Shown here: positions 4,055 through 54,773 of the stretch, in pieces
Position numbering within the stretch: the first letter of the stretch is position 1
Layout: each line of letters starts with the position of its first letter
Assembly (NCBI GenBank): GCA_016841265.1
Contig: JAENZL010000016.1
Coordinates: forward strand, 8,051-72,050
Source: Methanobacteriota archaeon
GTDB lineage: Archaea; Halobacteriota; Methanosarcinia; Methanosarcinales; Methanosarcinaceae
DNA: 64,000 nt
Direction of reading: 5' to 3'
The notes under the pieces: generated by a model
Seen by the model: only the letters and a program-made list of their open reading frames with translations
Told to the model about the DNA's origin: nothing
Databases searched by the model: none
Position numbers and translations under genes: made by a program

Positions 4055-4972
4055 TTACCGGTTGATTTTTACCGCAAGCATCCTGTCAAGAGCTTCTTTT
4101 GCCCTTCCTCTGACGTCATCGGGAACGGTTACCACACTCTGCATGTTCTCAAGGGAAGCAAGGAGATTTTCGAGGTTAACCATCTTCATGCTGGGGCAGC
4201 AAGCGTATTTGGAGATGCAGTAAAATTTCTTATCAGGAACCTCCTTTAAAAGCGCATGTATCAGCCCGCATTCGGTCCCAACGATGAATTCCCCGACATT
4301 TGATTCTTTTGCATACATGATCATGCCTCTGGTGCTTGCCACCTTTTCGGCAAGTTTGAGGACCTCGGGCCGGCACTCGGGGTGAGCAATGAAATCGGCT
4401 TCGGGATGTACCTCTTTCATCCGCAGGACATCCTCCCTGAGAACCTGGTGATGTGTCGGGCAGTGCCCTTCCCAGGGAATGATTTTCTTATCCGTGTGAG
4501 CCGCAACATAAGCTGCAAGGTTTTTATCCGGCACAAAGATAACTTCATTGGCATCAAGGGAATTTACCACTTCCACGGCGTTTGCCGAGGTGCAGCAGAT
4601 GTAGGACTCCGCTTTGATCACTGCCGAACTATTCACATAGCAGACCACGAGGGCATCAGGATGCATTTCTTTAAGCTTCCTGAGCCCAGGCACATCCACC
4701 ATGTCAGCCATGGCGCAACCTGCATCTATTTCTGGCAACAGCACGGTTTTGTCCGGGCAGAGGATCGCGGCACTTTCCCCCATGAAATGGACGCCGCAAA
4801 ACACGATTACATCCGCACCCTGGCGGACAGCTTCCTGACTCAAAGCCAGAGAATCACCCACAAAATCCGCAACGTCCTGGACTTCAGGGCGGGAATAGTA
4901 ATGAGCAAGAATCACTGCATTTCGTTTTTTCTTCAACTCTTTGATCCGTTCTATAAGCTCTGCTTGCTGCAT
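4055..4972 (-). CDS. nadA: quinolinate synthase
   Basis: Condenses iminoaspartate with dihydroxyacetone phosphate to quinolinate in NAD synthesis, using an oxygen-sensitive [4Fe-4S] cluster. The 305-residue length and the motifs [20 protein letters not shown] and [12 protein letters not shown] are typical NadA. The three cluster cysteines map to Cys86 (DAGCAMADM), Cys171 (GHCPTHH) and Cys258 or 259 (YACCPSMKM). It is read on the same strand as nadX, 425 bases downstream of it, with a repeat-bearing spacer between, so a separate promoter is likely; a TATA-like AT stretch lies around 5000-5030. Confidence 0.97.
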
Positions 4973-5396
4973 GGGACCACCGAAAATTTTTGAAAGGTAT
5001 ATGATTTGAAAATATAATATACGATTTCGTTACAATTCATGAGATCAATTCTGAAGGTCAATTCTGAAGGTCAATTCTGAAGGTCAATTTATGAGGTTTC
5101 GATTTCATCAAATTCATGCTAACGTAAAAGTAAATTTAATCAATCAGGCGCTAAAAACGCACATACTATCAATTCAGTTGAGCGTACCTGCTTAACTCTT
5201 CCGAACTATATAATCATTTTGAGCACCACATCTGGTAGCAGAATGCAATTATCGAAGAGATTCTACATAAATATACAACACGTGCCATAAAATTTTAATG
5301 AAGGATGAAAAAGGTAAAAAAGAAAAAATATAAAAAAGATATTTCTGCGAAGAAGGTTTCAATAATTTTAAAGCAACCTTTTTAAGGCAACATTAT
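4973..5396. other. nadX-nadA spacer with 13-bp repeat
   Basis: No gene found. The stretch near 5000-5030 (aaatataatatacg read from the plus strand) could be the TATA region of nadA on the minus strand. A three-copy 13-bp repeat is at 5046-5084. The last 100 bases are A/T-rich and lie just past the nadX stop, where an oligo-U terminator would be expected. Confidence 0.5.
5046..5084. repeat. 13-bp tandem repeat, three copies
   Basis: Three perfect copies of caattctgaaggt head to tail, followed by a broken fourth. Located upstream of nadA (which reads leftward), about 75-110 bases before its start. Confidence 0.95.
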
Positions 5397-6212
5397 TCAG
5401 GTCCCGATCTGAAGAGGATTCACAATCTTTTTTAAAGTGGAAATCGCAGAAAGAGCAGCGAGATAGCTGGTACGGGGGTTCTCCGGCGAGGGAAGATTTT
5501 CGACTCTGGTAGAAAAACTGCCAAAATCCCCTTCCACCCTGACCTCGTGAACGTTCCGTGAAAGAGCAGGGTCAGCAATGACCTTAACTTTCGTTCGATC
5601 AAAACCAATTCCAGCGAGGCTGATAGTTGCTGAGACATTAACATTTGCAGGGAAAGCCTTCACGGCTTCGGAAGCCGGACCTTCAAATATCACGGTTTCG
5701 CAGTCTATTTTTTTAAGGTCTATGCCCTTCTCCACAACAAAAGGAGCCCCTTCAAGCCCTGAAGGAGGTTTCCTGGTGGTAAGGGTTACAGAGGAGATAT
5801 CCGCAGCAGACGCGGAGATCAGCCCATCTATTCCGACCACTGCACCTGAAGGGAAGTAGAGTTTGCGGTTGAACTTCCTGGCAAGCCCGAAGACTTTCTC
5901 CCTGAGTTCCCGGTCCGCAAAAGCGCCTACACTCATAACGATCACGTCACATCCTGCTTCAAGGGCTTGGGGGACGATTTCCCTAACTGCCCCATGGGAA
6001 GCGCATTCAACTAGCAGGTCCACATTTTTTACAAGTTTTTCAAGCTCCATATGCTTAGGCTTACATGTATTCAACGAAGCCGCAAGATCCAGAACTTTGC
6101 TTTTCGTAGAGTCGCAGAGCCCGTACATTTCAACATCTATTGCTCCTTCATCAATAGCCCTGCAAATCTGCCCACCAATAAATCCACAGCCAACAATTCC
6201 GACTTTCAGCAT
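5397..6212 (-). CDS. nadX: L-aspartate dehydrogenase
   Basis: Oxidises L-aspartate to iminoaspartate with NAD(P), feeding NadA; used in archaea and Thermotoga instead of L-aspartate oxidase NadB. The 271-residue protein begins with a Rossmann fingerprint (VGIVGCGFIGGQICRAI, residues 4-20), has SGAVVGIDGL around residues 126-135 and the C-terminal NVHEVRVEG block of the AspDH family. It is divergent from nadC with a 281-base spacer, and nadA follows downstream, so the three steps from aspartate to nicotinate mononucleotide are encoded together. A TATA-like gctttttataaag lies about 40 bases upstream on the minus strand. Confidence 0.94.
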   Translation of the reverse strand: MLKVGIVGCGFIGGQICRAIDEGAIDVEMYGLCDSTKSKVLDLAASLNTCKPKHMELEKLVKNVDLLVECASHGAVREIVPQALEAGCDVIVMSVGAFADRELREKVFGLARKFNRKLYFPSGAVVGIDGLISASAADISSVTLTTRKPPSGLEGAPFVVEKGIDLKKIDCETVIFEGPASEAVKAFPANVNVSATISLAGIGFDRTKVKVIADPALSRNVHEVRVEGDFGSFSTRVENLPSPENPRTSYLAALSAISTLKKIVNPLQIGT

Positions 6213-6493
6213 AGAAACTCCTGAAAAAATAATGAATAGATTCGTGATGATCTTTATAAAAAGCTCTCTGAAGCCCTGAGAAGAGGGAGAACTGAGGGGT
6301 ACTGTATATACTCCCCCTCCTTAAACCTTCTGTTGTCGGGTTTGCCTTATGTACCCCCCATTTATTCTCACTGATACACAAAACAGAAAATCAACTAAAC
6401 AAAAAATCAACTAAACAGAACATCGAAACTTGATGAAAACTCCCATGCCCCTTATAAATCCCGGGAAACATAGAGTAGCATGGGTAAAATATC
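6213..6493. promoter_or_regulatory. divergent nadX / nadC promoter region
   Basis: Shared upstream region. For nadX (minus strand) a TATA-like sequence lies at 6249-6262. For nadC (plus strand) cttataaat at 6451-6459 lies about 35 bases before the ATG at 6494, which implies a very short 5' leader. A short direct repeat (aaaatcaactaaaca, twice) is at 6388-6418. Promoter calls are by eye. Confidence 0.5.
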
Positions 6494-7342
6494 ATGTATA
6501 TAAAAGATATCGAACGCTTTATAGAGGAAGATCTGGGATATGATGATGTTTCATGCACCATCGTACCTGATGAACCCTCAGAAGCGGTTATATTCACAAA
6601 AGAAGATTGCACTGTTGCCGGAATAAGGGAAGCTTCGGCAATCTTTTCTTACCTCGGGGTCCGGGCCAAAACCGAACTGAAAGACGGAGACAGGCTCCGG
6701 GCGGGAGACGTTATTTTCCGATTGAGTGGGGGAGCGGTTTCCATTCTACAAGGAGAACGGCTGGCTCTGAACTTTCTAGGGCACCTGAGCGGGATTGCAA
6801 CGCTTACCCGGGCCTGCGTAGACATTACCAGGAAGCATTCGGAGCACACCAGGGTAGCATGCACGAGAAAGACCACGCCCGGGATCCGGAAATTTGAGAA
6901 GAGAGCCGTTGTTGCCGGAGGAGGGGACCCGCACAGGTTCAACCTCTCGGACTCTGTCATGATAAAAGATAACCATATCAAAATCATGGGAATCGAAGCC
7001 GCAATAAAGGCAGCCAGAAAGACGAGCTTTACCCGGAAAATAGAAGTAGAGGTCGAGTCCGCAGAAGACGCAGTTCTGGCTGCAGGGATGGGTGCGGACA
7101 TAATCATGCTAGACAATATGCAGCCGGAAGAAATCCGAAACACCCTGAAAGTACTGGAAGAAAAAGGGCTGAAAGGTAACGTTCTGGTCGAAGCCTCGGG
7201 CGGAATTTCCAGAGATAACCTTGAAGAGTACACAAAAACCGGGGTAGATGTCATATCAATGGGTTCCCTAATCCACCGGGCCAGATGGATAGACATCAGC
7301 CTTGAAATGGTTAATTCGGAGGGTACGGGAAATCCGGAATAA
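6494..7342 (+). CDS. nadC: nicotinate-nucleotide pyrophosphorylase (quinolinate phosphoribosyltransferase)
   Basis: Converts quinolinate and PRPP to nicotinate mononucleotide, CO2 and pyrophosphate. The 282-residue protein has the type II PRTase signature: ERLALNFLGHLSGIAT, the basic TRKTTPGIRKFEKRAVVAGGG segment, HRFNLSDSVMIKDNH, and the C-terminal EASGGISRDN phosphate loop. It is the last step of the local NAD branch (nadX, nadA, nadC). No clear Shine-Dalgarno site precedes the ATG, which fits the short leader implied by the TATA position. Confidence 0.97.
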   Translation: MYIKDIERFIEEDLGYDDVSCTIVPDEPSEAVIFTKEDCTVAGIREASAIFSYLGVRAKTELKDGDRLRAGDVIFRLSGGAVSILQGERLALNFLGHLSGIATLTRACVDITRKHSEHTRVACTRKTTPGIRKFEKRAVVAGGGDPHRFNLSDSVMIKDNHIKIMGIEAAIKAARKTSFTRKIEVEVESAEDAVLAAGMGADIIMLDNMQPEEIRNTLKVLEEKGLKGNVLVEASGGISRDNLEEYTKTGVDVISMGSLIHRARWIDISLEMVNSEGTGNPE

Positions 7343-7631
7343 GCTACCTTAATTGACACTTTAAAACATTATTTATCACTTATTATTTCATCCCCCCAGG
7401 AGTTCTTGCCATTTTTCCCGCCCGGCCCTTTATTTCCACCAGGATATTAAAAGAAAAAAATAAAATAACCAGATAAAATTTTAAATGAGAAGAATAAAAA
7501 TGAAAAGAGGAAAAGATCATAAGCTTTATATCTGGTTTTGCTGAAGATAAATAAGCGTAAATCAAAAAAATTGAGAAGGAAAATGACCCCATAAAAAAAA
7601 TCTTTTTTTATAAAAACCTGAGGTAGCAGAA

Positions 7632-8891
7632 TTGAAACTAAAAAGGATCCATATACCTGTTCTATGTGCATTTTTCATCCTGCTGATGCTCGGCGGCGCA
7701 GCATCGGCCAGAGCGGACGTATATGAAGGGGATATCGAAGAAGGAGACGGATACCAGCTGAACAACTACGTGATTGAAATCACGGATGTCTTTGTGGAAG
7801 CAAATACCGCCTCTTATTATGTGTACGAAAGGGAAAAGACGGTTGAGGACGGGCTGCTGGACATAAATGAGAGTTTCGAGTTTGATTTCGACGATGGCGG
7901 AGAAGTCCAGATGCGCCTGAAGTCCGTACACTCAGGAGTCGTACCCAGAGCCACGGTAGAGATTACGATATCCAACTATAACATAGGAGACCTCTACATA
8001 AATGATCTCGTCGACGGAGGTCATTCCGCGGCAGACTTTGCAGGAGACCCTGAAATTGAAATAACAAAGAAAATCGACAGGTCCGAAATCGGGATAGGGG
8101 AAACCATAACCGTAACGGTTAATGCAAAAAATACCGGAGACGATGCCGCACAAAACGTGTTATTTACGGACCCAAAGCAGGAACACTTCGTTCTGGAAAA
8201 GACAACGTACGAAGTCACGGGTTCGGTCCCTGAAATCGACGTGGGGGAATCAATACCGGTATACATATATGAATTAAAGGCAACAGAAGCAGGGGCCTAT
8301 GACCTCAAACCGGTCACTGCAAGTTACACTAACAGTGCATCTCAGGCTTACCAGTCAAGTTCAAATACTCCCACGATAACAATAAGCGAGGGGAATAAAA
8401 AGAGCGCCCAGGTCGAAGTTTCAATGGACGTAGACCTGAAGTCAGTAGAAAGAAACGGAAAAATGATCTCAACCATCATCCTCAGGAATAACGGTGATGC
8501 TGCTGCAGAGGCTGTCCGGCTGGACATCTCGCTCCCCCAGGGTATCGAATATGAAGGAGGAGATGAGGACATTGAGCTCATAGGCGGGAACCCCAGGATC
8601 TATATCGATACTCTCCAGGCAAACAACGATAAGGAGTACAGCTACGTTTTAAAAGCAAACGAAGTGGGTACCTACACCATTGCAGGAGAGCTTTCGTACG
8701 AGTATAACAACGAAGTGGATGCCGAAAATATAAAAGAAAGTGCAGAGGTCAAAACCTCCAGCATTTACGTGACAAAAGGCAAACTTGATTACCTCTTTGA
8801 ACAACCTGTATACGTATACATAATACCCATCCTGATCCTTGGAGCAATCGGCGTGCACCTCTACAGAAAGCACAAAGAATACAAATACTAA
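7632..8891 (+). CDS. secreted, C-terminally anchored COG1361-type (CARDB/DUF11-like) protein
   Basis: The 419-residue product has an N-terminal signal peptide (basic start, hydrophobic core at residues 8-27 ending ...GGAASARA), a large acidic extracellular part with at least two immunoglobulin-like repeats (IGETITVTVNAKNTGDDAAQNV and ISTIILRNNGDAAAEAVRL regions), and a single C-terminal membrane helix (YVYIIPILILGAIGV) followed by a short basic tail. This matches archaeal COG1361 surface proteins with S-layer-like repeats. The start is a TTG after a GAGGT ribosome site. Function is not known; it probably sits in the pseudoperiplasm. The CetZ-like gene follows on the same strand. Confidence 0.82.
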   Translation: MKLKRIHIPVLCAFFILLMLGGAASARADVYEGDIEEGDGYQLNNYVIEITDVFVEANTASYYVYEREKTVEDGLLDINESFEFDFDDGGEVQMRLKSVHSGVVPRATVEITISNYNIGDLYINDLVDGGHSAADFAGDPEIEITKKIDRSEIGIGETITVTVNAKNTGDDAAQNVLFTDPKQEHFVLEKTTYEVTGSVPEIDVGESIPVYIYELKATEAGAYDLKPVTASYTNSASQAYQSSSNTPTITISEGNKKSAQVEVSMDVDLKSVERNGKMISTIILRNNGDAAAEAVRLDISLPQGIEYEGGDEDIELIGGNPRIYIDTLQANNDKEYSYVLKANEVGTYTIAGELSYEYNNEVDAENIKESAEVKTSSIYVTKGKLDYLFEQPVYVYIIPILILGAIGVHLYRKHKEYKY

Positions 8892-9042
8892 GAGATTCTT
8901 TATTGTGGATAATTATCAACTCCATAATATTTAATGGAAGTATTCGAGGATTGTCTCAGGCAACGCAGGCTTTTCGCGGAAAAAAAGCGTGAATAACCCC
9001 GGACAGGAAAAATGCAAACATACCCTAAAATGGAGGAGTTTC

Positions 9043-10155
9043 TTGCTCAACATACTGGTGATAGGAAACGGGCAGTGTGGAAACAGAATCCTTGATTCTG
9101 TCAACAAACATGCATTCGGCGGGGGTAAAAGCGGCAAGCTTGTCAAATTTTACTCCAAGCAAAAGTTTAAGAGCAACGTTCAAACCATCGCCTTCAACAC
9201 TGCTGTCAATGACTTAAAAGAAATGAAATTTACAAAAGCAAAGGACAGAGTTCATATCCCCCACCTGCACGGTGTCGGTGCAAACCGGAACATAGGAAAG
9301 AAGGTGTTTGAAGAGAAAAGAGAGATGATCATGCGCCAGATCGAAGAGAAGGGCAATTTTGATATCGCCTTTGTGATAACTTCGGCTTCCGGCGGCACAG
9401 GTTCTTCTTTTACCCCCCTCCTTGTAAAGGAGATGAAAGAGCGCTATGATTATCCTATTTACTGCATCGTGGTCCTGCCTTTCAGGGAAGAAGGCACACT
9501 CTACCTCCAGAACGCTGCATTTTCTCTCCGGGAACTCCGCCAGAGCGGAGCTGACGGGGTCATCCTTGCGGACAACCAGTACCTTAAAAACATTGGCGGT
9601 AGCATCCAGGAAGCCTACAATGGGATCAACGACATGATCGCCGAGCGCCTCCTCTTCCTCCTCGACGCCCTGGACAGCGAAATGATGATGGTAACAGACC
9701 TCGGGGACTTTAAGACGGTCATGAGCGGAGGTGCGGGCTTAGCGACAATCGGCTTTTATAGGGCTGAAAAAGAAATGCCGATCAAAACAGCCATCCAGAA
9801 TGCCCTTTCCCCCACAGGCTTGCTCTTTTCCACAGACGTCTATGATGAAGCCAGCAGGGCAATGGTCATCATCAAGGGCGACCGGAAATACCTGAGCATC
9901 GATGACATATCAAGTGAAATAGAAAAGCTGTCAGGAGCTGTAGGACACGTCTTCAAAGGCATAGTAGTGCGCAACGGCGAATTCCCCCAGGTCCTTTCTG
10001 TCCTCACTCTGGAAGCTGCCCACGAGCTTGAAGAACTCTACAATGTAGCCGTCCAGGCCATCCACCATGAAAAAGCGAAAAAGCAGAGGGTGGAGGAAGG
10101 AGCCGAATTGGACAAAACTTTTTCCCAGCTCGAAGGCCTTGAACCTGAATATTGA
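9043..10155 (+). CDS. CetZ/FtsZ-like tubulin-superfamily GTPase
   Basis: Tubulin/FtsZ-superfamily protein of 370 residues. The GTP-binding N-terminus NILVIGNGQCGNRI, the tubulin signature SASGGTGSSFTPLL (SGGTGS glycine loop) and the helix NGINDMIAERLL, equivalent to the region before the T7 loop, are visible. It differs from canonical archaeal FtsZ1/FtsZ2, which begin with a charged tail and read GAGGAGCN/GGGTGTG, and is closer to the CetZ type known from haloarchaea for cell-shape control. The frame is open to 8989, but a TTG at 9043 follows GGAGGAG and leads straight into the first beta strand, so I take that start. A 7-bp hairpin lies just after the stop. Membership is firm; CetZ subgroup is inferred. 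Confidence 0.87.
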   Translation: MLNILVIGNGQCGNRILDSVNKHAFGGGKSGKLVKFYSKQKFKSNVQTIAFNTAVNDLKEMKFTKAKDRVHIPHLHGVGANRNIGKKVFEEKREMIMRQIEEKGNFDIAFVITSASGGTGSSFTPLLVKEMKERYDYPIYCIVVLPFREEGTLYLQNAAFSLRELRQSGADGVILADNQYLKNIGGSIQEAYNGINDMIAERLLFLLDALDSEMMMVTDLGDFKTVMSGGAGLATIGFYRAEKEMPIKTAIQNALSPTGLLFSTDVYDEASRAMVIIKGDRKYLSIDDISSEIEKLSGAVGHVFKGIVVRNGEFPQVLSVLTLEAAHELEELYNVAVQAIHHEKAKKQRVEEGAELDKTFSQLEGLEPEY

Positions 10156-14315: not shown

Positions 14316-14774
14316 TTACCTGGTAATCATCATTTCAGCTGTCTCAGGCTTGTAAAGCCATTCCTTGGGGAGTACCTTTTCCTGGTGGTAGTACTTAACA
14401 AGTCTGCGGATCTTGGATTCGGTCAGCTGGAGAGAACGCTTGTTGTGGACGTCCTTCTTGTTGATTGCAAGGTGCTTCCTGAGTCCAAGGGCCTTAACGA
14501 TCAGGTTGTAGAGGTCTTCGGGGACACTTGGAGCAACATTGTTTTCCTTGAGGATAGCTGTGATCTTCCTGCCTGTGAGAAGTTTCACATCAGGAACTCC
14601 GTAGCGATCCCTCAGGATCATTCCGATTTCTGAGGTTGCAACACCCTGTTTCCAGAGGTCAAGCACTACTCCGGTAGCCTCTTCCGCACTAACCTTGCAC
14701 CACTCGGGTACTTCGGTCCTGTTGGGTCTGGTAGATGAAGACTTACCTTTACTTCTGGTATGCATTTTAGCCAT
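14316..14774 (-). CDS. rps15: 30S ribosomal protein S15 (archaeal/S13e type)
   Basis: Small-subunit protein binding 16S rRNA. The 152-residue length is that of the archaeal/eukaryotic form, with an N-terminal extension ([17 protein letters not shown]) before the bacterial-like core. Characteristic segments: [18 protein letters not shown] and the C-terminal [20 protein letters not shown]. It is monocistronic here. A TATA-like region is upstream of 14820 on the minus strand. Confidence 0.97.
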
Positions 14775-15159: not shown

Positions 15160-16404
15160 TCAGGAAGGTCCCCAGAGGCTCAGGACTATTCGAGCCCCTC
15201 CCGGATTAACCTGCCTGTAAATAGATTCCACCTGAGCATCCCTGAGGGCCTGTACCTCAGAGAAATCTTCAGCCCCTACCATACCCGAAACGGTCCGGTT
15301 GATTTCTCCGGAAAACTCAGCTTCAAGCTCGATCCTTATTTCCTCCTCAAGAACGGCAAGCAGGAGATCCTGAAGTACCGGGAGATCGGAAGCTGAGACA
15401 TTTTCGGGACTGATTCCGGATTCAAATTTAAAATCGGCTTCAAGCAGTTCCGCGAAGAAAACCAGGAACGCTTCTTCCGGGCTTTCGGAACTCCCGGCGC
15501 CGGGACTTTCCGGAACCCCATAGAGCAGCGTCTGCATGGACTCATCTGCGTCCTCTCCGAAAACCGAACCAAAATATTCCGAGGGGAAAAGAAGTTCCGA
15601 TACCGCCCTGGCCCCTTCAAGAGCAGCGGCATCAAGGACGGAATCAAAAGCTACAGAAAGGTTTTCTGCGGTCTCCCCCTCGGAAGCATTGAGGAAACTT
15701 ACAAGGGCGGCATCACTCACAGGACTGTAGATATCTTCCCTTGAAGGGGCATAGGTGCCAGGAGGCATGGAAAGCTTTGCACTCTGCCGGATCGCATTGG
15801 CAGGCGCTTCATCCCCTATAATAAGTTCACTCCCGAGAGGGAAGGCTTTCACAGGATACCAGTATGCTTCAAAACGATAGGAGAACCTTCCTGCAAGTTC
15901 CCGGTCCAGGTAAGCCGTGACAACATCCGAAACCTGTGCATTATAATCGGCAGCCAGGGGATTGAGAGGAACTGAAGAGCCACTGTCCGAAAGCATAAGG
16001 GAAAGGGCAAGGCATTCTGCAGTCAGGTCGGCAAAAGTCCGGTGCTTCTGCTCTTTTCCAAAAAGAGTGCTCACAGGACTTTCAACCACGGAATTTTCGG
16101 GCAGGTCAAGCCCCAACACCGAAAAAGGAGAAATTTCATAATCGAAATCTTCAAACTTGCAGGAAAGGAGCGTCTCCAGCAGGTGGGAATCCATTTCGGA
16201 GCCTGCCGTGTAATAAGCTGCTTCATACTGCCCCCCTGCATGCAGGGAAGGCATAAGCAAGACTCCCGCAAGCGAGATAAGCACAAGCAAAAAAAGGGCA
16301 TCAAAGACCGTGGAATAAGCGGACGAATCCCACGCCCGGAGTTTTCTGCCTTCCGGAATTTCCCCTGGCTTCCAGCCCAGAAACGTCCATTTCCTGTCTG
16401 TCAA
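15160..16404 (-). CDS. pilin-like membrane-anchored protein, fourth gene of cluster
   Basis: I recognise no characterised homologue. The 414-residue product has a short basic cytoplasmic-type start, the motif WDSSAYSTVFDALFLLVLI (residues 25-43) where an acidic/serine quartet precedes a single long hydrophobic segment (about 33-54), then an entirely hydrophilic, acidic domain to the C-terminus. That layout, shared with the three genes upstream, is of an archaeal type IV pilin-like protein exposed outside the cell. It is unusually large for a pilin, so it might be a tip or minor component. It is separated by 167 bases (with a 26-bp repeat) from the preceding gene. Function inferred only. Confidence 0.7.
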   Translation of the reverse strand: MTDRKWTFLGWKPGEIPEGRKLRAWDSSAYSTVFDALFLLVLISLAGVLLMPSLHAGGQYEAAYYTAGSEMDSHLLETLLSCKFEDFDYEISPFSVLGLDLPENSVVESPVSTLFGKEQKHRTFADLTAECLALSLMLSDSGSSVPLNPLAADYNAQVSDVVTAYLDRELAGRFSYRFEAYWYPVKAFPLGSELIIGDEAPANAIRQSAKLSMPPGTYAPSREDIYSPVSDAALVSFLNASEGETAENLSVAFDSVLDAAALEGARAVSELLFPSEYFGSVFGEDADESMQTLLYGVPESPGAGSSESPEEAFLVFFAELLEADFKFESGISPENVSASDLPVLQDLLLAVLEEEIRIELEAEFSGEINRTVSGMVGAEDFSEVQALRDAQVESIYRQVNPGGARIVLSLWGPS

Positions 16405-16474
16405 TTATTCCAACCCTCCAATAATCTTATACAATGCTCTCCGACTCCTCACCACTCATTTATTTTAGTCAGAT

Positions 16475-16544
16475 CCGGAAATTAAATTCGAAAAGTAAAT
16501 CCGGAAACCATAACCGGAAATTAAATCCGGAAACCATAACCGGA
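16475..16544. repeat. 26-bp repeat (ccggaaaccataaccggaaattaaat)
   Basis: One full copy at 16501-16526, a second truncated copy to 16544, and a divergent one at 16475-16500. Lies between the third and fourth genes of the pilin-like cluster and contains several TCCGGA palindromes. Confidence 0.88.
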
Positions 16545-16571
16545 TTATTTCATTTACCCCGAACCCCCTTT

Positions 16572-17189
16572 TCAGACCCACCCCGATTGATAGAGTACAA
16601 CTGTTAGAGTCCCAGGGACCGATTCTGCGGGGTTCAATTCGATAACCACCGGTACGGAGGCAGCTATACGGTCCGTTTCTTCAAGGAAAAAAACAGGGTC
16701 CCGGTCATTGGGCATTATCTCCCACTTCCATTCTCCATCCAGAGTCCTAACCTCAATAAGGAAAACATAATTTCCCGAAAAAGCCACAAAAAGCCGTTCC
16801 CTTTCCACCTTCCCCCCGAAACCTGAAAGTTCGTCGAGGACCTCGGCAGAAAGGAGTTCAGGGTTTCCAGCCCTCAAGACAGGGGCTCCGGCAAGGGACT
16901 CGGCCAGGAGAGAAGCGCTTTCGTAGTGTTCAAGGGCAAAGGAACGGTCCTCGTAGCCCAGATAGCCCTGGGATAGCAGGGCGGCAAAGACAACAAAACC
17001 GATTACAGCAAGGGCTGTGGAAAGGAGATCTGCCTGAGGCTCGAGCACTCCGCTTTCGTCCCGGAACAGCCCCCCAAAGGGTTTTCCTGAAAACTTGCCC
17101 GGAAATTTTCCTGAAACATTACCTGAAATATTTCCAGGAACCTTCCCGCTAACAAGGGAAAAATCATTGATAAATGAGGATACACGCAA
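16572..17189 (-). CDS. pilin-like membrane-anchored protein, third gene of cluster
   Basis: No known homologue recognised. A TTG at 17189 preceded at 8 bases by AGGAGGT is preferred over an ATG at 17219; both overlap the preceding gene. After the start comes a Gly/Pro/Ser-rich repeat (units such as VPGN, VSGK, FPGK) of about 28 residues, then FRDESGVLEPQADLLS leading into a hydrophobic helix (VIGFVVFAALL) and a 130-residue extracellular-type domain. The D-E-S-G motif before the helix is shared with the neighbouring genes. The repetitive stretch in front of the motif is odd for a pilin leader, which is normally short; it looks like an expanded 12-15-bp DNA repeat. Confidence 0.7.
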   Translation of the reverse strand: MRVSSFINDFSLVSGKVPGNISGNVSGKFPGKFSGKPFGGLFRDESGVLEPQADLLSTALAVIGFVVFAALLSQGYLGYEDRSFALEHYESASLLAESLAGAPVLRAGNPELLSAEVLDELSGFGGKVERERLFVAFSGNYVFLIEVRTLDGEWKWEIMPNDRDPVFFLEETDRIAASVPVVIELNPAESVPGTLTVVLYQSGWV

Positions 17190-17796
17190 AACCCGATACC
17201 TCCTCCCCTTCCTTAACATAAATGAATTCCTTCTTTATCGAGACAGCTTTAGCAACATCCAGCTCCTTTTCCCCGGCACCGGCAGCCGAAAGATACTTTG
17301 TTATTTCCGAATAGTCCGCAGGCAGAGGATCTTCCCCGCTCCCTTCTGCCCCGAACCTGTCCAGGAGCTTTTCCCGCAGAGCAGTTTCATTAAAAGGCAA
17401 AACCCTGAAAGCAAAAGGTTTTATTGCCCTGACCGTTTTTCCGTCAATTTCGGTTTCCAGCCAGAAATATTCCCCGGAGACGTATGCATCGACTTCCCGC
17501 TCGAAAGGAGAAGCCTGAAACCTGTCAAATCCTTCAAAATGGTAGAGGGCCTCAGGGGACTCCCCCTGGAAACTTCCGGCTCCGACCTCATCCACGGCAG
17601 CTTTGAAGTCCCTGGCAACGGCATCAAGCCCTTCTCCGGCTTCAAGGCTCCCGAAACCGGCCCCCAGCTGAAAAAGGGCTGCAAAAAGGACGGCACTTGC
17701 AAGAATAAGGGCCGCTTTCGAAATCAGGAAATCAGCCCATGCGGATTCATCCTCCAGAATTTCCCTCAGCAAATGCCCCCTGACCCTGAAAATCAT
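17164..17796 (-). CDS. pilin-like membrane-anchored protein, second gene of cluster
   Basis: No characterised homologue recognised. The 210-residue protein begins with a basic leader (MIFRVRGHLLREIL), then EDESAWADFL and a hydrophobic helix (ISKAALILASAVLFAALF, about residues 26-43), then a hydrophilic domain with predicted mixed structure. The ATG overlaps the preceding stop by four bases (ATGA), typical of coupled translation, and the 3' end overlaps the next gene's start. The shared D-E-S-A motif plus one N-terminal helix point to a class III signal (prepilin-like) protein. Partners are likely the adjacent products. Confidence 0.72.
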   Translation of the reverse strand: MIFRVRGHLLREILEDESAWADFLISKAALILASAVLFAALFQLGAGFGSLEAGEGLDAVARDFKAAVDEVGAGSFQGESPEALYHFEGFDRFQASPFEREVDAYVSGEYFWLETEIDGKTVRAIKPFAFRVLPFNETALREKLLDRFGAEGSGEDPLPADYSEITKYLSAAGAGEKELDVAKAVSIKKEFIYVKEGEEVSGFACILIYQ

Positions 17797-18350
17797 ACCC
17801 CGCCTACCGCTTCGTCATATGATTCTTCATATGTTCCCTGCAAACCTTCACTTTCGTTTCCGGAAACCAGCACGAATAACCTCCCCGTCTCAGGTTCAAT
17901 GACAGTTTCAAGAACCAGCCTGTGACGTCCGGAACCCAAAATTGCAGGCCCTTCCATAGACGGACCCGAAAAGCTTGCGGATGAGGCGTAAAAACCTTCC
18001 CTCCTTCCCATGCTTAGATAATAATTGTGCGCATCTGCCGGCCATTCTCCTTCCCTTCCGGGAAGGGCTCCTAAACCGACTTTTACATCTTCTGGAACTC
18101 TAAGCTCCAGGGTAACCTCACTACCAGCTCCACGAAGCGAGAGCTGTTCGGCCGCAACTGTGAGTTTCGAAACTTCAACCACAGCTTCCCGTTCCTTTTC
18201 GTCTTCAAGAAACCCGGAGAGGGAAATAGAGGAAAGCACCAGAAGAGCGGCAAAAAGCAAAGCTCCCACCGAAAGCCTGAAAGGCAGTCCGAAGACTGCA
18301 GACTCGTCACCCGAAATTGAGACGCCTACAACCGAAACCTGGCCAGCCGT
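17793..18350 (-). CDS. pilin-like membrane-anchored protein, first gene of cluster; start codon uncertain
   Basis: The frame is open from an in-frame TAA at 18383-18381 and codes for GQVSVVGVSISGDESAVFGL, then PFRLSVGALLFAALLVLSSI and an outer domain. GDESA plus the helix is the motif shared with the neighbours, so translation should begin before it, yet no ATG, GTG or TTG exists between the TAA and the motif. The first canonical codon is GTG at 18269, which would remove the motif and half the helix. An ACG at 18350, shortly after GGGGTAGAG, would give a normal 13-residue leader; ATT at 18317 is another option. A minus-strand TATA box at 18414-18424 fits a start near 18350. A frameshift or sequencing error is the main alternative. 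Confidence 0.6.
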   Translation of the reverse strand, partial: TAGQVSVVGVSISGDESAVFGLPFRLSVGALLFAALLVLSSISLSGFLEDEKEREAVVEVSKLTVAAEQLSLRGAGSEVTLELRVPEDVKVGLGALPGREGEWPADAHNYYLSMGRREGFYASSASFSGPSMEGPAILGSGRHRLVLETVIEPETGRLFVLVSGNESEGLQGTYEESYDEAVGGV

Positions 18351-18413
18351 AACTCTACCCCACTCTTTGAATCCCTGAAATTACGGAATAAGAATATACA
18401 AAGTTTGCAATGA

Positions 18414-18424
18414 GTATATAAAAA
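18414..18424 (-). promoter_or_regulatory. TATA box of the pilin-like operon
   Basis: On the minus strand the sequence TTTTTATATAC matches the archaeal TATA consensus. Transcription would start about 25 bases downstream, near 18390, just before the open frame of the first pilin-like gene. Confidence 0.55.
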
Positions 18425-18700: not shown

Positions 18701-19936
18701 TTACTGCCGCGAGACCTTTCCAATAACTTCTTCCACCGTAAGAAGTTCCTGTTCTCCGGATTTCATGTCTTTCAGGGTGAGCTTCCCGACTTCGAGTTCC
18801 TTTTCTCCCACAATTACCACATAGTCGGCACCGATGTTGTTTGCAAAAGTGAGCTGGGTCTTGAAATTGCGCTCCATCAGGTCTATGTGCACGGGCACGT
18901 ATTCCCTGAGCTTGTTTGCGAGTTTGACTGCTTCCAGGTGGGTTACGGGCTTTGAGACCAGGACCAGTTTCTTCGGCTCTTCAGGAACGAGTTCACAGAT
19001 TTCCATGATCCTGTCAAAGCCTATCCCGAAACCTGTCGAAGGCACATCACCACCTCCAAAAAGCTGGATCAACTGGTAGGAGCCACCACCGCAGACCTGC
19101 TTTTGGGCACCCAGACCTTCGCCGTAGACCTCAAAGACCATTCCGGTGTAATAATCAAGCCCTCGAGCAATCCCGAAGTCCAGGGAATACTCAACACCGT
19201 ATGCGTCAAGGAGCTCCAGAGTCTTTTCGAAACTTTCGATTTCCGGGATATTTCCTACGATTTCTTTTACCTTTGGGAGAATACCTTTTCCTTCCAGTTT
19301 GATCAGCCTGAAAAGGTTTGATTTCAGGGCTTCACTGGCATCGATCTCTTCGAGCAGGGATTCGAGCCCTTCATACTCTTTCTTGTCCACAAGCCGCATT
19401 ATCTTGCTCACGGTCTCGGAGTCAAGTTCCTGCAAAATAGTGCGGATCACGGCCAGATTTCCGATTTTCAGGTCACCTTTGATCCCTGCAGCCTTTAACA
19501 TTGCATTTGCCAGGGCAATGACCTCAGCATCTGAATCAGGCTTTTTGGTCCCGATAAGTTCCACTCCGAACTGCCAGAATTCTCTAAACCTTCCCTTTTG
19601 AGGACGTTCATAGCGGAAGCAGTTTTCAAAATAGAACAGCTTCAGGGGTTTTGGGAGGGCCTGCAGTTCATTTACATACATGCGCATGACAGGAGCCGTG
19701 AGTTCGGGCCTGAGGGTCATGGCTCTACCGCCCTTGTCCATAAAGTTGTAGAGTTCTCCTACGACCCCTTCCCCTGACTTCAGGGTGAAGAGATCCAGAT
19801 GTTCGAACGTGGGAGTAATGACCTCGCTGTAGCCCCAGTTGCGGGCAACATCCCTCATTATGCTTTCCACGTACCTTCGCCGGGAAGTATTGGCAGGTAA
19901 AAAATCCCGGGTCCCTCTTGGCCTATTGACTGTCAT
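18701..19936 (-). CDS. hisS: histidyl-tRNA synthetase
   Basis: Class II aminoacyl-tRNA synthetase charging tRNA-His, 411 residues. Class II motif 2 is visible as [22 protein letters not shown], histidine-specific motifs as [16 protein letters not shown] and SGFGIGFDR-type ([14 protein letters not shown], motif 3), and a C-terminal anticodon-binding domain from about residue 320. An upstream GTG gives four more residues, but the ATG at 19936 has an AGGTG site at the proper distance and gives the family-typical [14 protein letters not shown]. Single gene with its own upstream region. Confidence 0.97.
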
Positions 19937-20474
19937 TTTTAAAAGCACCTGAATTCGATCGAATTAAACGAAATTATCGGTAAATGAAACAACCGGTAAA
20001 TAGATTTTATCTTTGATAAATAATCGGTAAATGAAATTATGTGAATCAAATATTATGTGAACCAAATATTATGTAAACCAAATATTATGTGAACCAAATA
20101 TTATGTGAACCAGATATTATGTGAACCAAATATTATGTGAACCAGATATTATGTGAACCAAATATTATGTGAACCAGATAATATATAAATGGAATAACGT
20201 GCAGATGGATTTCGAATGGTAGTAGTTAAAAACAAGCTATTTTACCTTTTCGATGTTTGCCCCAAACCCGTAAACAGAGGGATATCGAATACTCATGAAA
20301 ACGAGATATAAACACAGAAATAGTATATTAATTTTGTAAAATAAAGTAGAATGGATTCCAACAGGCACATTTTTCGAGATCAAACAATCCCAAAGCAAAT
20401 AAAGGCAAGTTTAAACTGACTAATATAATAAACAACTTAATATACCTGATTCACTGTAAATATTTGCGATTAAC
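19937..20474. other. divergent hisS / cobD upstream region
   Basis: No gene. It contains the nine-copy 16-bp repeat (20036-20179). On the cobD side, ttaatata at 20437-20444 lies about 31-38 bases before the GTG start, consistent with an almost leaderless cobD transcript; no Shine-Dalgarno site precedes that GTG. I see no cobalamin riboswitch-like structure. Confidence 0.5.
20036..20179. repeat. 16-bp tandem repeat, nine copies
   Basis: Nine head-to-tail copies of attatgtgaaccaaat, of which several read ...ccagat in an alternating pattern (copies 5, 7 and 9), plus single changes in copies 1 and 3. It sits between divergent hisS and cobD, so it may influence either promoter. Confidence 0.96.
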
Positions 20475-49864: not shown

Positions 49865-49940
49865 CAGTGATCGAGTACAGATAAAATGTAAAATAATTTA
49901 CATTAAATCATCTGGAAAATATCAAAGAGTGGGGGAACTC

Positions 49941-50429
49941 ATGAGACAAATCCGGTTTTTAAGAAATGACGAAAGAGCTATGGAACTCCCGATCAATATT
50001 GTGGTGATGCTGGTCGTGGGGATGGTTGCCCTTGCAACACTTATTTCGATCATACCGACTCCGACAAAAGAGATGTCAGTTTTTGTGGTGGAGACGACTC
50101 TGGAAGGAGGGAGTCCTCAAGCAGGAAATTCGATAATAGTAACCGCCGAAAATGCAACAGATCCTTTCGGCGTAACTGTAAAGATCGAGGTGACAGATCA
50201 GGACGGTAACCCCGTAAGAGACGCAAACGTGGTGCTTACAGGTCTCGGTGGTGCGGCATCGAATAACACAATCATCGATGGGACCACTGTCCTGATCACT
50301 GATGAGGCAATGCCCAGGCTTGATCCGAACCAGAATGAAGGAACTATGGACCTGAAGATCCTGGCAGATGGTTTCTATGACTACGAGAAACAGGACGCCA
50401 TTATGATCATAAAGACCCGGGGGACCTGA
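49941..50429 (+). CDS. archaeal type IV pilin-like protein
   Basis: The 162-residue product has a short basic leader (MRQIRFLR), an acidic motif NDERAMELP, one hydrophobic helix (INIVVMLVVGMVALATLIS, about residues 18-36), and an outer beta-rich domain with DQDGNPVRDANVVLTGLGG, a carboxypeptidase-regulatory/Ig-like segment. This is the layout of archaeal pilins processed after the charged leader. The ATG at 49941 is six bases after GGGGG; a GTG four codons earlier is less likely. A second gene of the same type follows 112 bases downstream. Confidence 0.75.
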   Translation: MRQIRFLRNDERAMELPINIVVMLVVGMVALATLISIIPTPTKEMSVFVVETTLEGGSPQAGNSIIVTAENATDPFGVTVKIEVTDQDGNPVRDANVVLTGLGGAASNNTIIDGTTVLITDEAMPRLDPNQNEGTMDLKILADGFYDYEKQDAIMIIKTRGT

Positions 50430-50541: not shown

Positions 50542-51000
50542 ATGCTACCCCGGAAATTCACTGAGAATGAAGAAGGGACCGTCGGGCTCCCGATAAGAAT
50601 TGTGGTTCTTTCGATCGTGGGCTTCATAGGGTTTTATGCGATCCTCTCAGCCATCTCAAGCGCTCCCTCGCCGCCCGAACCCCTGTATGCGGAAGCAAAC
50701 GTGAGCGCTGTTTTCCTCCCAGCGGAAGAAGAAAACAACACGGAAACAAATCTGACCCTCCTTGTCACGGCACTTGACGGGGAGAGCCAGAGGGTAGGGG
50801 GAGCTAATGTTATTCTCTGGAGCCCCGACCGTAACCGGGCATACTCCGGCGTCACGGACGCGGAAGGAAAAGTTTTAATAGAGCTCAAAAATCCGGAGTT
50901 GCCCCGGGGAAAAGCCGAAGGGTACATCTCCCTGAAAGCTATGAAAACAGGATACCGGGATTACGTAAACGACTATTTTGTAAAAATTACCCGGATTTGA
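50542..51000 (+). CDS. archaeal type IV pilin-like protein, second copy
   Basis: The 152-residue product mirrors the preceding gene: short leader MLPRKFT, acidic motif ENEEGTVGLP, one hydrophobic helix (IRIVVLSIVGFIGFYAILS) and an Ig-like outer domain (VGGANVILWSPD, YSGVTDAEGKVLIELK). Strong AGGAGGTCG site before the ATG. With its neighbour it forms a two-gene unit; the pair differ enough to be distinct subunits. No peptidase or secretion ATPase gene is next to them. Confidence 0.75.
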   Translation: MLPRKFTENEEGTVGLPIRIVVLSIVGFIGFYAILSAISSAPSPPEPLYAEANVSAVFLPAEEENNTETNLTLLVTALDGESQRVGGANVILWSPDRNRAYSGVTDAEGKVLIELKNPELPRGKAEGYISLKAMKTGYRDYVNDYFVKITRI

Positions 51001-52850: not shown

Positions 52851-54773
52851 TCAAATCTTCCGGATTTCGATTAGTTCCCCGCGGTCCATAGCTTCCATTA
52901 TTTCCTGGGAAAGGTCCGAATTAATCCTGATTTTCACGTCTCCATGCCTGCCTACGGTTGCGCTGAAGAGATATTCATCTTCGATATAGACTTCAACGTC
53001 CCCACCTGCCAGTTCCGGGACACTAAGAATCAGGTGTTTTTTTGTTTTTTCCAGGAGTGGATGGGCTGAAACGGGAAGGTCGGCTTCCGGAAAACCGGTC
53101 ATTCCGGCAGTTTTCATGTAGGCTTCGGATTTCTCGGCGTACTTCATTTCTTTTGCGGGTCTGGAGGGTTCGGACTCGAATTCCCGGACGTCAATATGGA
53201 TTCCCAGCGTCTTTTCTATCCGGTCGATTACGCTCCCGCCTTTCCCGATAACTTTTCGCATTTCCGTGCTCCGGACTTTCACTGTGGCACTGTTGTCCGA
53301 AGTCACTTCAACTTCGACAGGACCACTGGCATACTTCCGGATAACGTTTCGGATCTCTTCTTCCGCAAGTTTCCAGGCAGGTTTTCGTTCCTCTTTCCTG
53401 GTCCCGATAGGCATGACCACAACCTGCTCGCCGTAGGTGTAGATCTCGTACTCAACTTTTCCGGTCTCGAAGTCCTCAATTGTGATGACAGGCCTGGCAA
53501 GGTCCTGCTCGACCATCCCGTGAGGCACCTTGACTGTGAAAGCCAGCACCATGACCTTTGCAACCTCTCCTTTGTCAATAAAAATGACCGTGTCCACTAC
53601 CTGAGGGATTACCCCCAGTTCCACCCTTCCGATCAGGCGCTGGATTGCGTCCACAGCCCGGGTTGCGTGCACGACTCCGATCATCCCGACCCCGGCCAGG
53701 CGCATGTCCGCAAAAATAAGGAAATCATTGGTCTTCCGGACCTCATCGTAAACCGTATAATCCGGTCTCACCAGGAGCAAGAGGTCTGCAGTATCTTCCA
53801 TCCGCCCGTTCAGGGGAGAATACTGGGTAATCTCAGGCGGCACCTGCAGGTCCCTGGGGGATTCCATAGTCTTGACCACCTGCTCGTGATCATTCAGGTA
53901 GCGTGCAACCCCGGCTGCAAAAGTAGACTTACCGGCTCCCGGGGGCCCGGCGATGAGAATACCCCGCTGACTTTCGATGCGTTCTTTCAATTTATCGCTC
54001 AGGCGGTAATGTTCAAGGTCCACGATAACCGTAGGGCGGACCACGGTAATCTCCATGTCATCGGAAAAAGGCGGATGGGCGATTGCAATCCGCATGTTCC
54101 GGATCTGCAGGACAGTTGCCCCGGCAGAAGACATTTCAATAAAGGATTCGGGGTCGACTCTTGCCCTTTCGATAAGCTCTTTGGAAATGCTTTGAAGTTC
54201 CGCCATTGAAACAGGCTCATCCCGGATTCGGAGATAGCGCACTCTCCCCACAGGCCCCTTCTTTGCCATAGGAGAAACCCTATTTTTGAGGTGGACGGAC
54301 ATGGTGTCGTCAGTGAAAAAATGCTCGACCCTGAGAGGCCCCAGTTCCGAAGGGTCCACGACCTTCGGGGGCACGTAATCCACATCAATCCCCCTGGCTT
54401 CCGCAATAAGGGACTGGACCCGGTCCTCACTCACAAAAAGCCCGCCTACCTCAAGAGCCGTGCTGCGGATCAGGGCATCCACCCGACCTTCTTTCGAAAG
54501 CTTGATTTCCTCCAGGGTGGGCCGGACCCCGCTGAACTTCAAGGTAATGTCGCCTTTCTCAGCAAGCCTGCGCAGTTCCAAAAGTTCATCTAGCCCTTTG
54601 TAACCGATTTCCCTACCCTTGTTTGCCTGAGCTTCCAGTTCCGACACCACGGCTTCAGGGACGATGATCTCAGCTCCCCGGTACTCACCGCTCCTGACCC
54701 TGGCAGAGATTCTCCCGTCAATAATCACACTGGTATCCGGAACAATCCTACATATCCGCGTCTCTTCAGCCAT
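52851..54773 (-). CDS. PIN-ATPase-KH protein (PINA type)
   Basis: The 640-residue protein has an N-terminal PIN domain (VPDTSVIIDGRISARV and ALIRSTALEVGGLFVSEDR), a VirB11/PilT-type ATPase with Walker A GPPGAGKSTFAAGV and Walker-B-like LLLVRPDYTVYDE, and a C-terminal KH domain (RKVIGKGGSVIDRIEKTLG). This exact layout is COG1855. The Sulfolobus member, PINA, is a Holliday-junction branch-migration ATPase working with Hjc and Hjm; for methanogens this role is inferred. It is not the pilus motor despite the PilT-like core. ATG start. Confidence 0.92.
   Translation of the reverse strand: MAEETRICRIVPDTSVIIDGRISARVRSGEYRGAEIIVPEAVVSELEAQANKGREIGYKGLDELLELRRLAEKGDITLKFSGVRPTLEEIKLSKEGRVDALIRSTALEVGGLFVSEDRVQSLIAEARGIDVDYVPPKVVDPSELGPLRVEHFFTDDTMSVHLKNRVSPMAKKGPVGRVRYLRIRDEPVSMAELQSISKELIERARVDPESFIEMSSAGATVLQIRNMRIAIAHPPFSDDMEITVVRPTVIVDLEHYRLSDKLKERIESQRGILIAGPPGAGKSTFAAGVARYLNDHEQVVKTMESPRDLQVPPEITQYSPLNGRMEDTADLLLLVRPDYTVYDEVRKTNDFLIFADMRLAGVGMIGVVHATRAVDAIQRLIGRVELGVIPQVVDTVIFIDKGEVAKVMVLAFTVKVPHGMVEQDLARPVITIEDFETGKVEYEIYTYGEQVVVMPIGTRKEERKPAWKLAEEEIRNVIRKYASGPVEVEVTSDNSATVKVRSTEMRKVIGKGGSVIDRIEKTLGIHIDVREFESEPSRPAKEMKYAEKSEAYMKTAGMTGFPEADLPVSAHPLLEKTKKHLILSVPELAGGDVEVYIEDEYLFSATVGRHGDVKIRINSDLSQEIMEAMDRGELIEIRKI

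Follow-up and report, generated by a model that had tools for sequence, protein, structure and literature searches.

The 64-kb window analysed here (positions 8051-72050 of contig C11 in the 67-contig genome G000 of a Methanosarcinaceae archaeon) contains four adjacent minus-strand genes, g1 to g4, which encode pilin-like proteins and are flanked by hisS (18701-19948) and uS15 (14316-14774), both also on the minus strand. A first-pass annotation had described a four-gene operon of otherwise unrelated proteins with overlapping or coupled starts, and the genes do lie where it placed them, from 15160 to about 18332 (Table 1); its upper limit of 18383 is the stop codon upstream of g1 rather than the end of this gene. 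The overlaps are found between g1 and g2 (4 nucleotides) and between g2 and g3 (up to 56 nucleotides), but not at g4, which is separated from g3 by 167 nucleotides and has its own conserved start, GGAGG-spacer-TTG, with the TTG at position 16404. Profile-profile comparison among the four proteins detected no relatedness, in line with the annotation. The gene order hisS-g1-g2-g3-g4-uS15 is kept, as the annotation had asked to be checked, in the Methanosarcinales loci examined, with the hisS and uS15 flanks present in most of them, and all four genes also occur together in the f14 genomes (L071, L072 and L075).

In each of the four proteins, a motif of the form [D/N/E]-x-x-[A/G] directly precedes a single N-terminal hydrophobic helix, namely SGDESA-VFGLPF in g1, LEDESA-WADFLI in g2, FRDESG-VLEPQ in g3 and AWDSSA-YSTVF in g4. 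When the window genes were aligned with 78 orthologues, position -4 was D, N or E and position -1 was A or G in 82/82 rows. The residues that are fixed after the motif in the alignment differ from gene to gene: L+4 and R+7 in g1, W+1, D/E+3 and K/R+8 in g2, E+3, P+4 and D+7 in g3, and D+6 in g4. The same kind of motif is found in the pilins and the archaellin of this genome (KDDA-VSPVIG, NDRA-VSETMG, DCRA-VSEIIG, DKKA-IFPVVG and DERA-FTGLE), and for this reason the motif of g1-g4 is regarded as the prepilin-type signal of the lineage. The four genes show what defines the class III signal of archaeal type IV pilins, in which a leader closes with a polar or charged motif and A/G just ahead of a hydrophobic helix. 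A rough control was run on the DNA of the same genome, using 44 open frames with an N-terminal hydrophobic stretch; the motif was present in 15 of them, comprising the four operon genes, two further pilin-like genes, six known pilins or archaellin and three others, and only these last 3 of the 15 motif-bearing helices are not pilin-like. The description of g1-g4 as pilin-like proteins of one conserved operon with a prepilin-type motif is therefore upheld, and the assembly of their products into one complex is probable. As had also been noted, no ATPase, TadC or peptidase gene adjoins the operon, and all of them are encoded elsewhere in the genome. A search for the peptidases revealed two A24 prepilin peptidases, on contigs C15 and C51, both unlinked to the operon.

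Table 1. Genes, pre-helix motifs and other features of the window
Feature	Position	Strand	Description
g1	17793 to about 18332	-	pilin-like; distant relative of DUF7311 (PF23993); frame open to 18380
g2	17164-17796	-	pilin-like; without Pfam match; W+1, D/E+3 and K/R+8 conserved
g3	16572-17219	-	pilin-like; distant relative of DUF7285 (PF23956); E+3, P+4 and D+7 invariant
g4	15160-16404	-	large pilin-like; DUF7284 (PF23955); S+2 and D+6 conserved
g1 motif DESA	18297-18308	-	
g2 motif DESA	17740-17751	-	
g3 motif DESG	17049-17060	-	
g4 motif DSSA	16318-16329	-	
Putative TATA-like promoter element TTTTTATATAC	18413-18424	-	upstream of g1; kept in four close Methanosarcina loci
n1	49929-50429	+	pilin-like; NDERA-MELPINIVV; immunoglobulin (Ig)-like head; weak DUF7382
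n2	50542-51000	+	pilin-like partner of n1; NEEG-TVGLPIRIVV; Ig-like head

The g1 frame (18269-18383, minus strand) contains no ATG, GTG or TTG ahead of the motif, although the frame downstream is conserved. The ATG of the close relative G002 is AAG in the window, and a G-run next to the start region varies in length between close species, which results in frame changes. In the g3 protein of Methanosarcina the leader is about 50 residues long and includes the repetitive sequence SGKFPGKFSGK (17061-17189, minus strand in the window), and a short leader is found in most other genera. In the corresponding locus of G002 (L050, near 8422, minus strand), an in-frame TAG stands directly before the motif in the leader of g4, where the window has TGG; this possibly reflects pyrrolysine readthrough or a broken allele. 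A tblastn search of g2 against plasmids led nowhere.

Comparison with Pfam assigned g4 to DUF7284 (E = 3.6e-6, over the cut-off), with a weak match of g3 to DUF7285 and a very weak one of g1 to DUF7311. Upon comparison with the haloarchaeal families by hhalign, g1 matched DUF7311 (94%, E = 1e-7), g3 matched DUF7285 (96%, E = 4e-9) and g4 matched DUF7284 (98%, E = 5e-13). No paper naming these DUF families was found in the literature library searched. The haloarchaeal operon has the order DUF7310 (coiled coil)-DUF7311-T2SSE ATPase-TadC-DUF7283-DUF7285-DUF7284, which was seen in 14 of the loci read and in L138, L066 being one example of it. It shares with the methanogen system the homologous genes g1, g3 and g4 in the same order, and ATPase and TadC of the same type. 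However, in the methanogens examined the ATPase-TadC pair is unlinked from g1-g4 and no DUF7310 gene was detected next to this pair, g2 cannot be shown to be a DUF7283 protein, and all four methanogen genes keep the leader motif. A split layout like the methanogen one also exists in a haloarchaeon (G242; L137 and L065), in which the four pilin genes lie 0.28 Mb from ATPase-TadC, the locus of the latter retaining DUF7310 and a DUF7283 paralogue.

The ATPase of this type in G000 is encoded on contig C29 (79934-82711) and is directly followed by TadC (82743-84680), which matches the haloarchaeal TadC with an E-value of 1e-102. The ATPases of the haloarchaeal operon have four invariant cysteines (Cys) in the N-terminal part, and the C29 ATPase frame has 10 Cys within its first 200 residues. 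Searches with a profile (A5) of the ATPase from the haloarchaeal operon gave scores of 264-392 bits for 28 of 60 related genomes and no more than 124 bits for the remainder. An intact g4, identified with a g4 profile, is present in exactly the same 28 of the 60; in a few of the drafts it is cut by a break in the contig or the frame. A 29th genome (G010) has decayed g4 fragments only and no such ATPase. Both presence and absence occur inside five genera (genus labels g2, g5, g7, g8 and g19), always jointly for g4 and the ATPase, and several joint losses are thus needed. Among 247 genomes from the whole phylum, the raw counts were 59 with both, 1 with g4 only, 4 with the ATPase only and 183 with neither. 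Follow-up of the mismatches revealed g1-g4 in G207, the full haloarchaeal operon in G129 and a partial g4 in G260, which gave a final table of 62/1/1/183; G189 has a g4 remnant only, and the genome of G201 is 84% complete. The divergence of g4 runs parallel to that of the ATPase across the 15 genomes compared (r = 0.95), a correlation that shared ancestry alone could yield. The annotation had called the operon its best candidate for an undescribed surface system. An isolated, undescribed system is not supported: the operon co-occurs near-perfectly with the PilB-TadC pair of C29, and its haloarchaeal relatives share an operon with that ATPase and TadC. With motor and peptidases encoded in trans, it is not a stand-alone undescribed system.

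It is very improbable that the operon relies instead on the orphan PilB-TadC pair of C61 or on the pilus machinery of C63. No pilin gene adjoins the C61 pair, and a paper on archaeal pili (PMC4858521) notes that the pilins of an archaeal ATPase-TadC pair can be supplied in trans, which would allow such a service; however, it is the C29-type ATPase that tracks g4 exactly, one genome (G023) has an intact g4 without a C61-type TadC, and three others (G008, G021 and G017) show the reverse. The C61 PilB-TadC was rejected as a partner because its distribution does not follow g4. In G000, the ATPases of C61, C63 and the archaellum are all distant from that of the haloarchaeal operon. Split-TadC loci of other Methanosarcinales were also rejected as partners, their ATPases grouping with C61/C63, far from the haloarchaeal operon ATPase. 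The VirB11-like ATPase encoded in the window near n1 and n2 (52851-54773, minus strand), considered as a local motor, is a PINA-type (Holliday junction) ATPase and was likewise discarded. A distant collection search with A1 led nowhere.

Two of the loci just mentioned have features of their own. The C61 pair (locus L020 of G000, 4825-9413) is an orphan PilB-TadC whose N-terminal region is charged and very long. In many relatives (L080-L092 and similar Methanosarcinales loci), the TadC of a PilB locus is split between one gene of about 311 codons and another of about 336.

The genes n1 and n2 form a second pilin-like pair in the window. Their products are 24% identical and carry the same pre-helix signal as g1-g4. 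A homologue of n1 (30-37% identity, E = 1e-17 to 1e-28) lies immediately after a C29-type ATPase-TadC, or no more than about 2 kb from it, in the f14 genomes (L131-L134) and in G260 (L136). In G050 (L114), two n-type pilins, paired like n1-n2, directly follow ATPase-TadC, and one n-type pilin is found near the operon in the haloarchaeal locus L066. Because their homologues adjoin the C29-type ATPase-TadC, n1 and n2 are probably the bulk pilins, and they probably belong to the same pilus as g1-g4. A PilA-like pilin pair on C38 was dropped as a candidate major pilin, its family being too general to tell.

The best reading is that the system belongs to pilus subclade 4F, assigned by traits and not by placement in the VirB11 tree, since two of the three published traits have counterparts here and the third may have one. 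In the description of this subclade by Makarova et al. 2016 (PMC4858521), the N-terminal domain of 4F ATPases is reported to be rich in Cys, in methanomicrobia above all, the halobacterial locus encodes a coiled-coil intracellular protein, and the PilA-type pilin is mostly stand-alone, being located inside the locus in Methanocella arvoryzae. Correspondingly, a Cys-rich N-terminal domain is present in the haloarchaeal and C29 ATPases; a DUF7310 coiled coil, presumably identical with arCOG07564, heads the haloarchaeal operon; and the third trait may be matched in the f14 genomes, where an n1-like pilin comes after ATPase-TadC, a comparison made by description rather than by arCOG. The difference is that the main text of that paper mentions no separate four-gene pilin operon in methanogens. 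Methanococcus maripaludis, with EpdA, EpdB and EpdC, resembles the present case in having several distinct minor pilins and in encoding part of its pilins away from the main locus (PMC3875500), but these proteins are processed by EppA and belong to a different pilus clade (PMC4858521). The study of Haloferax volcanii (PMC6491452) concerns other ATPases.

Structure models were obtained for g1 and g4. The AlphaFold2 model of g1 (predicted local distance difference test, pLDDT, 88) has a 53-residue helix (residues 15-67) followed by a seven-strand beta head. The g4 model (pLDDT 75) comprises a long helix and a mixed head with a beta sheet, in which helices at 206-383, partly of low confidence, are placed between strands 189-195 and 388-395. 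Both models agree with the build of archaeal type IV pilins, a long N-terminal helix with a beta-rich head behind it. The g1 model gave weak structure matches, several of them to OB-like folds, which were not used for interpretation. Sequence searches of the PDB with the g3 and g4 profiles returned no match.

On this evidence g1-g4 are likely to be the minor pilins of a type IV pilus with components encoded at scattered sites in the genome, and they may form a priming or tip complex with g4 as its cap. The N-terminal helix would insert each protein in the membrane, and cleavage behind the A/G of the motif would fall to one of the A24 prepilin peptidases. Through their helices, with the conserved charges (R+7 in g1, D+3 and K+8 in g2, E+3 and D+7 in g3, and D+6 in g4), the four proteins would assemble into a single complex. 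This complex would be extruded by the C29 pair of Cys-rich PilB ATPase and TadC, which would polymerise the bulk pilins, probably n1 and n2, below it. The tip would be capped by g4, the subunit that has the large helical insertion.

The type II secretion set gspH-I-J-K, in which the tip is capped by GspK, a subunit with a large insertion (PMC7248040), offers an analogy in that four pilin-like genes are linked and the last is the largest, with an inserted domain; it differs in that no sequence or fold match was found with the g1 and g4 models or the g3 and g4 profiles. Tentatively, and by analogy only, the priming or tip complex could work like GspH-I-J-K from unrelated folds, by means of helix charge pairs and a cap formed by the g4 insertion, and could represent a conserved tip module of one pilus class that is linked in haloarchaea and scattered in methanogens. 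The same gene arrangement, together with the position of the helical insertion before the last strand of the g4 model, might be taken to mean that g1-g4 form a short type II secretion-like piston that exports a substrate, and not part of a long pilus. Such a pseudopilus is quite unlikely, since no substrate gene is linked to the operon, no structural match to any pseudopilin was found, and the n1/n2 homologues beside the ATPase resemble ordinary Ig-headed pilins. Archaea, moreover, are not known to have an outer membrane to cross.

Several observations weigh against g1-g4 being minor pilins of a C29-driven pilus. None of the operon proteins matches Pilin_N, and Foldseek searches with the g1 and g4 models found no solved structure at E <= 0.001. 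For g2, hhalign gave nothing significant against the haloarchaeal families, and DUF7283 is its counterpart by position only. In family f2 (L116-L119), no TadC was found adjoining the ATPase. The Fisher test of g4/ATPase co-occurrence (p = 3e-16) treats related species as independent, and the co-inheritance of operon and ATPase could be due in part to shared ancestry. Finally, h1 and h2, the haloarchaeal counterparts of g1 and g2, start at the helix without leader or motif, indicating that processing is not universal and that at least these two proteins may be membrane-anchored and not processed. A match to Pilin_N or to a solved pilin fold is not required for pilin status, many archaeal minor pilins having neither.

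The annotation had named homologues lacking the motif as a reason to abandon its reading. Such homologues exist in h1 and h2, whereas the motif is retained in h3 and in about half of h4, where STVxD follows a charged residue and A/G. The absence of a leader from h1 and h2, like the conserved charges within the helices, would suit a membrane stator or an S-layer-linked platform for ATPase-TadC, comparable to ArlF/ArlG of the archaellum, so that g1-g4 would not be filament subunits. We regard this alternative as unlikely, because the prepilin-type motif stands in all four methanogen genes as well as in the haloarchaeal genes that retain it, and no stator is known to carry four such signals.

Many archaeal pilin-like genes lie far from any motor, hence their partners are obscure. 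For the orphan operon g1-g4, minor pilins in the preferred reading, near-perfect co-inheritance names the partner, and the scattered pilus would be assembled from the C29 ATPase-TadC, g1-g4 and n1/n2. The pilus class has already been described; what is new is the partner, the scattered layout and the proposed role for three DUF families. A pilus role is thereby proposed for DUF7284, DUF7285 and DUF7311, which are families of unknown function. The DUF7284 family is present in the genome of Methanosarcina acetivorans, a genetically tractable methanogen (PMC8546582), in which the proposed role of the three families would be directly testable. The operon may also shed light on how pilus assembly begins in archaea.

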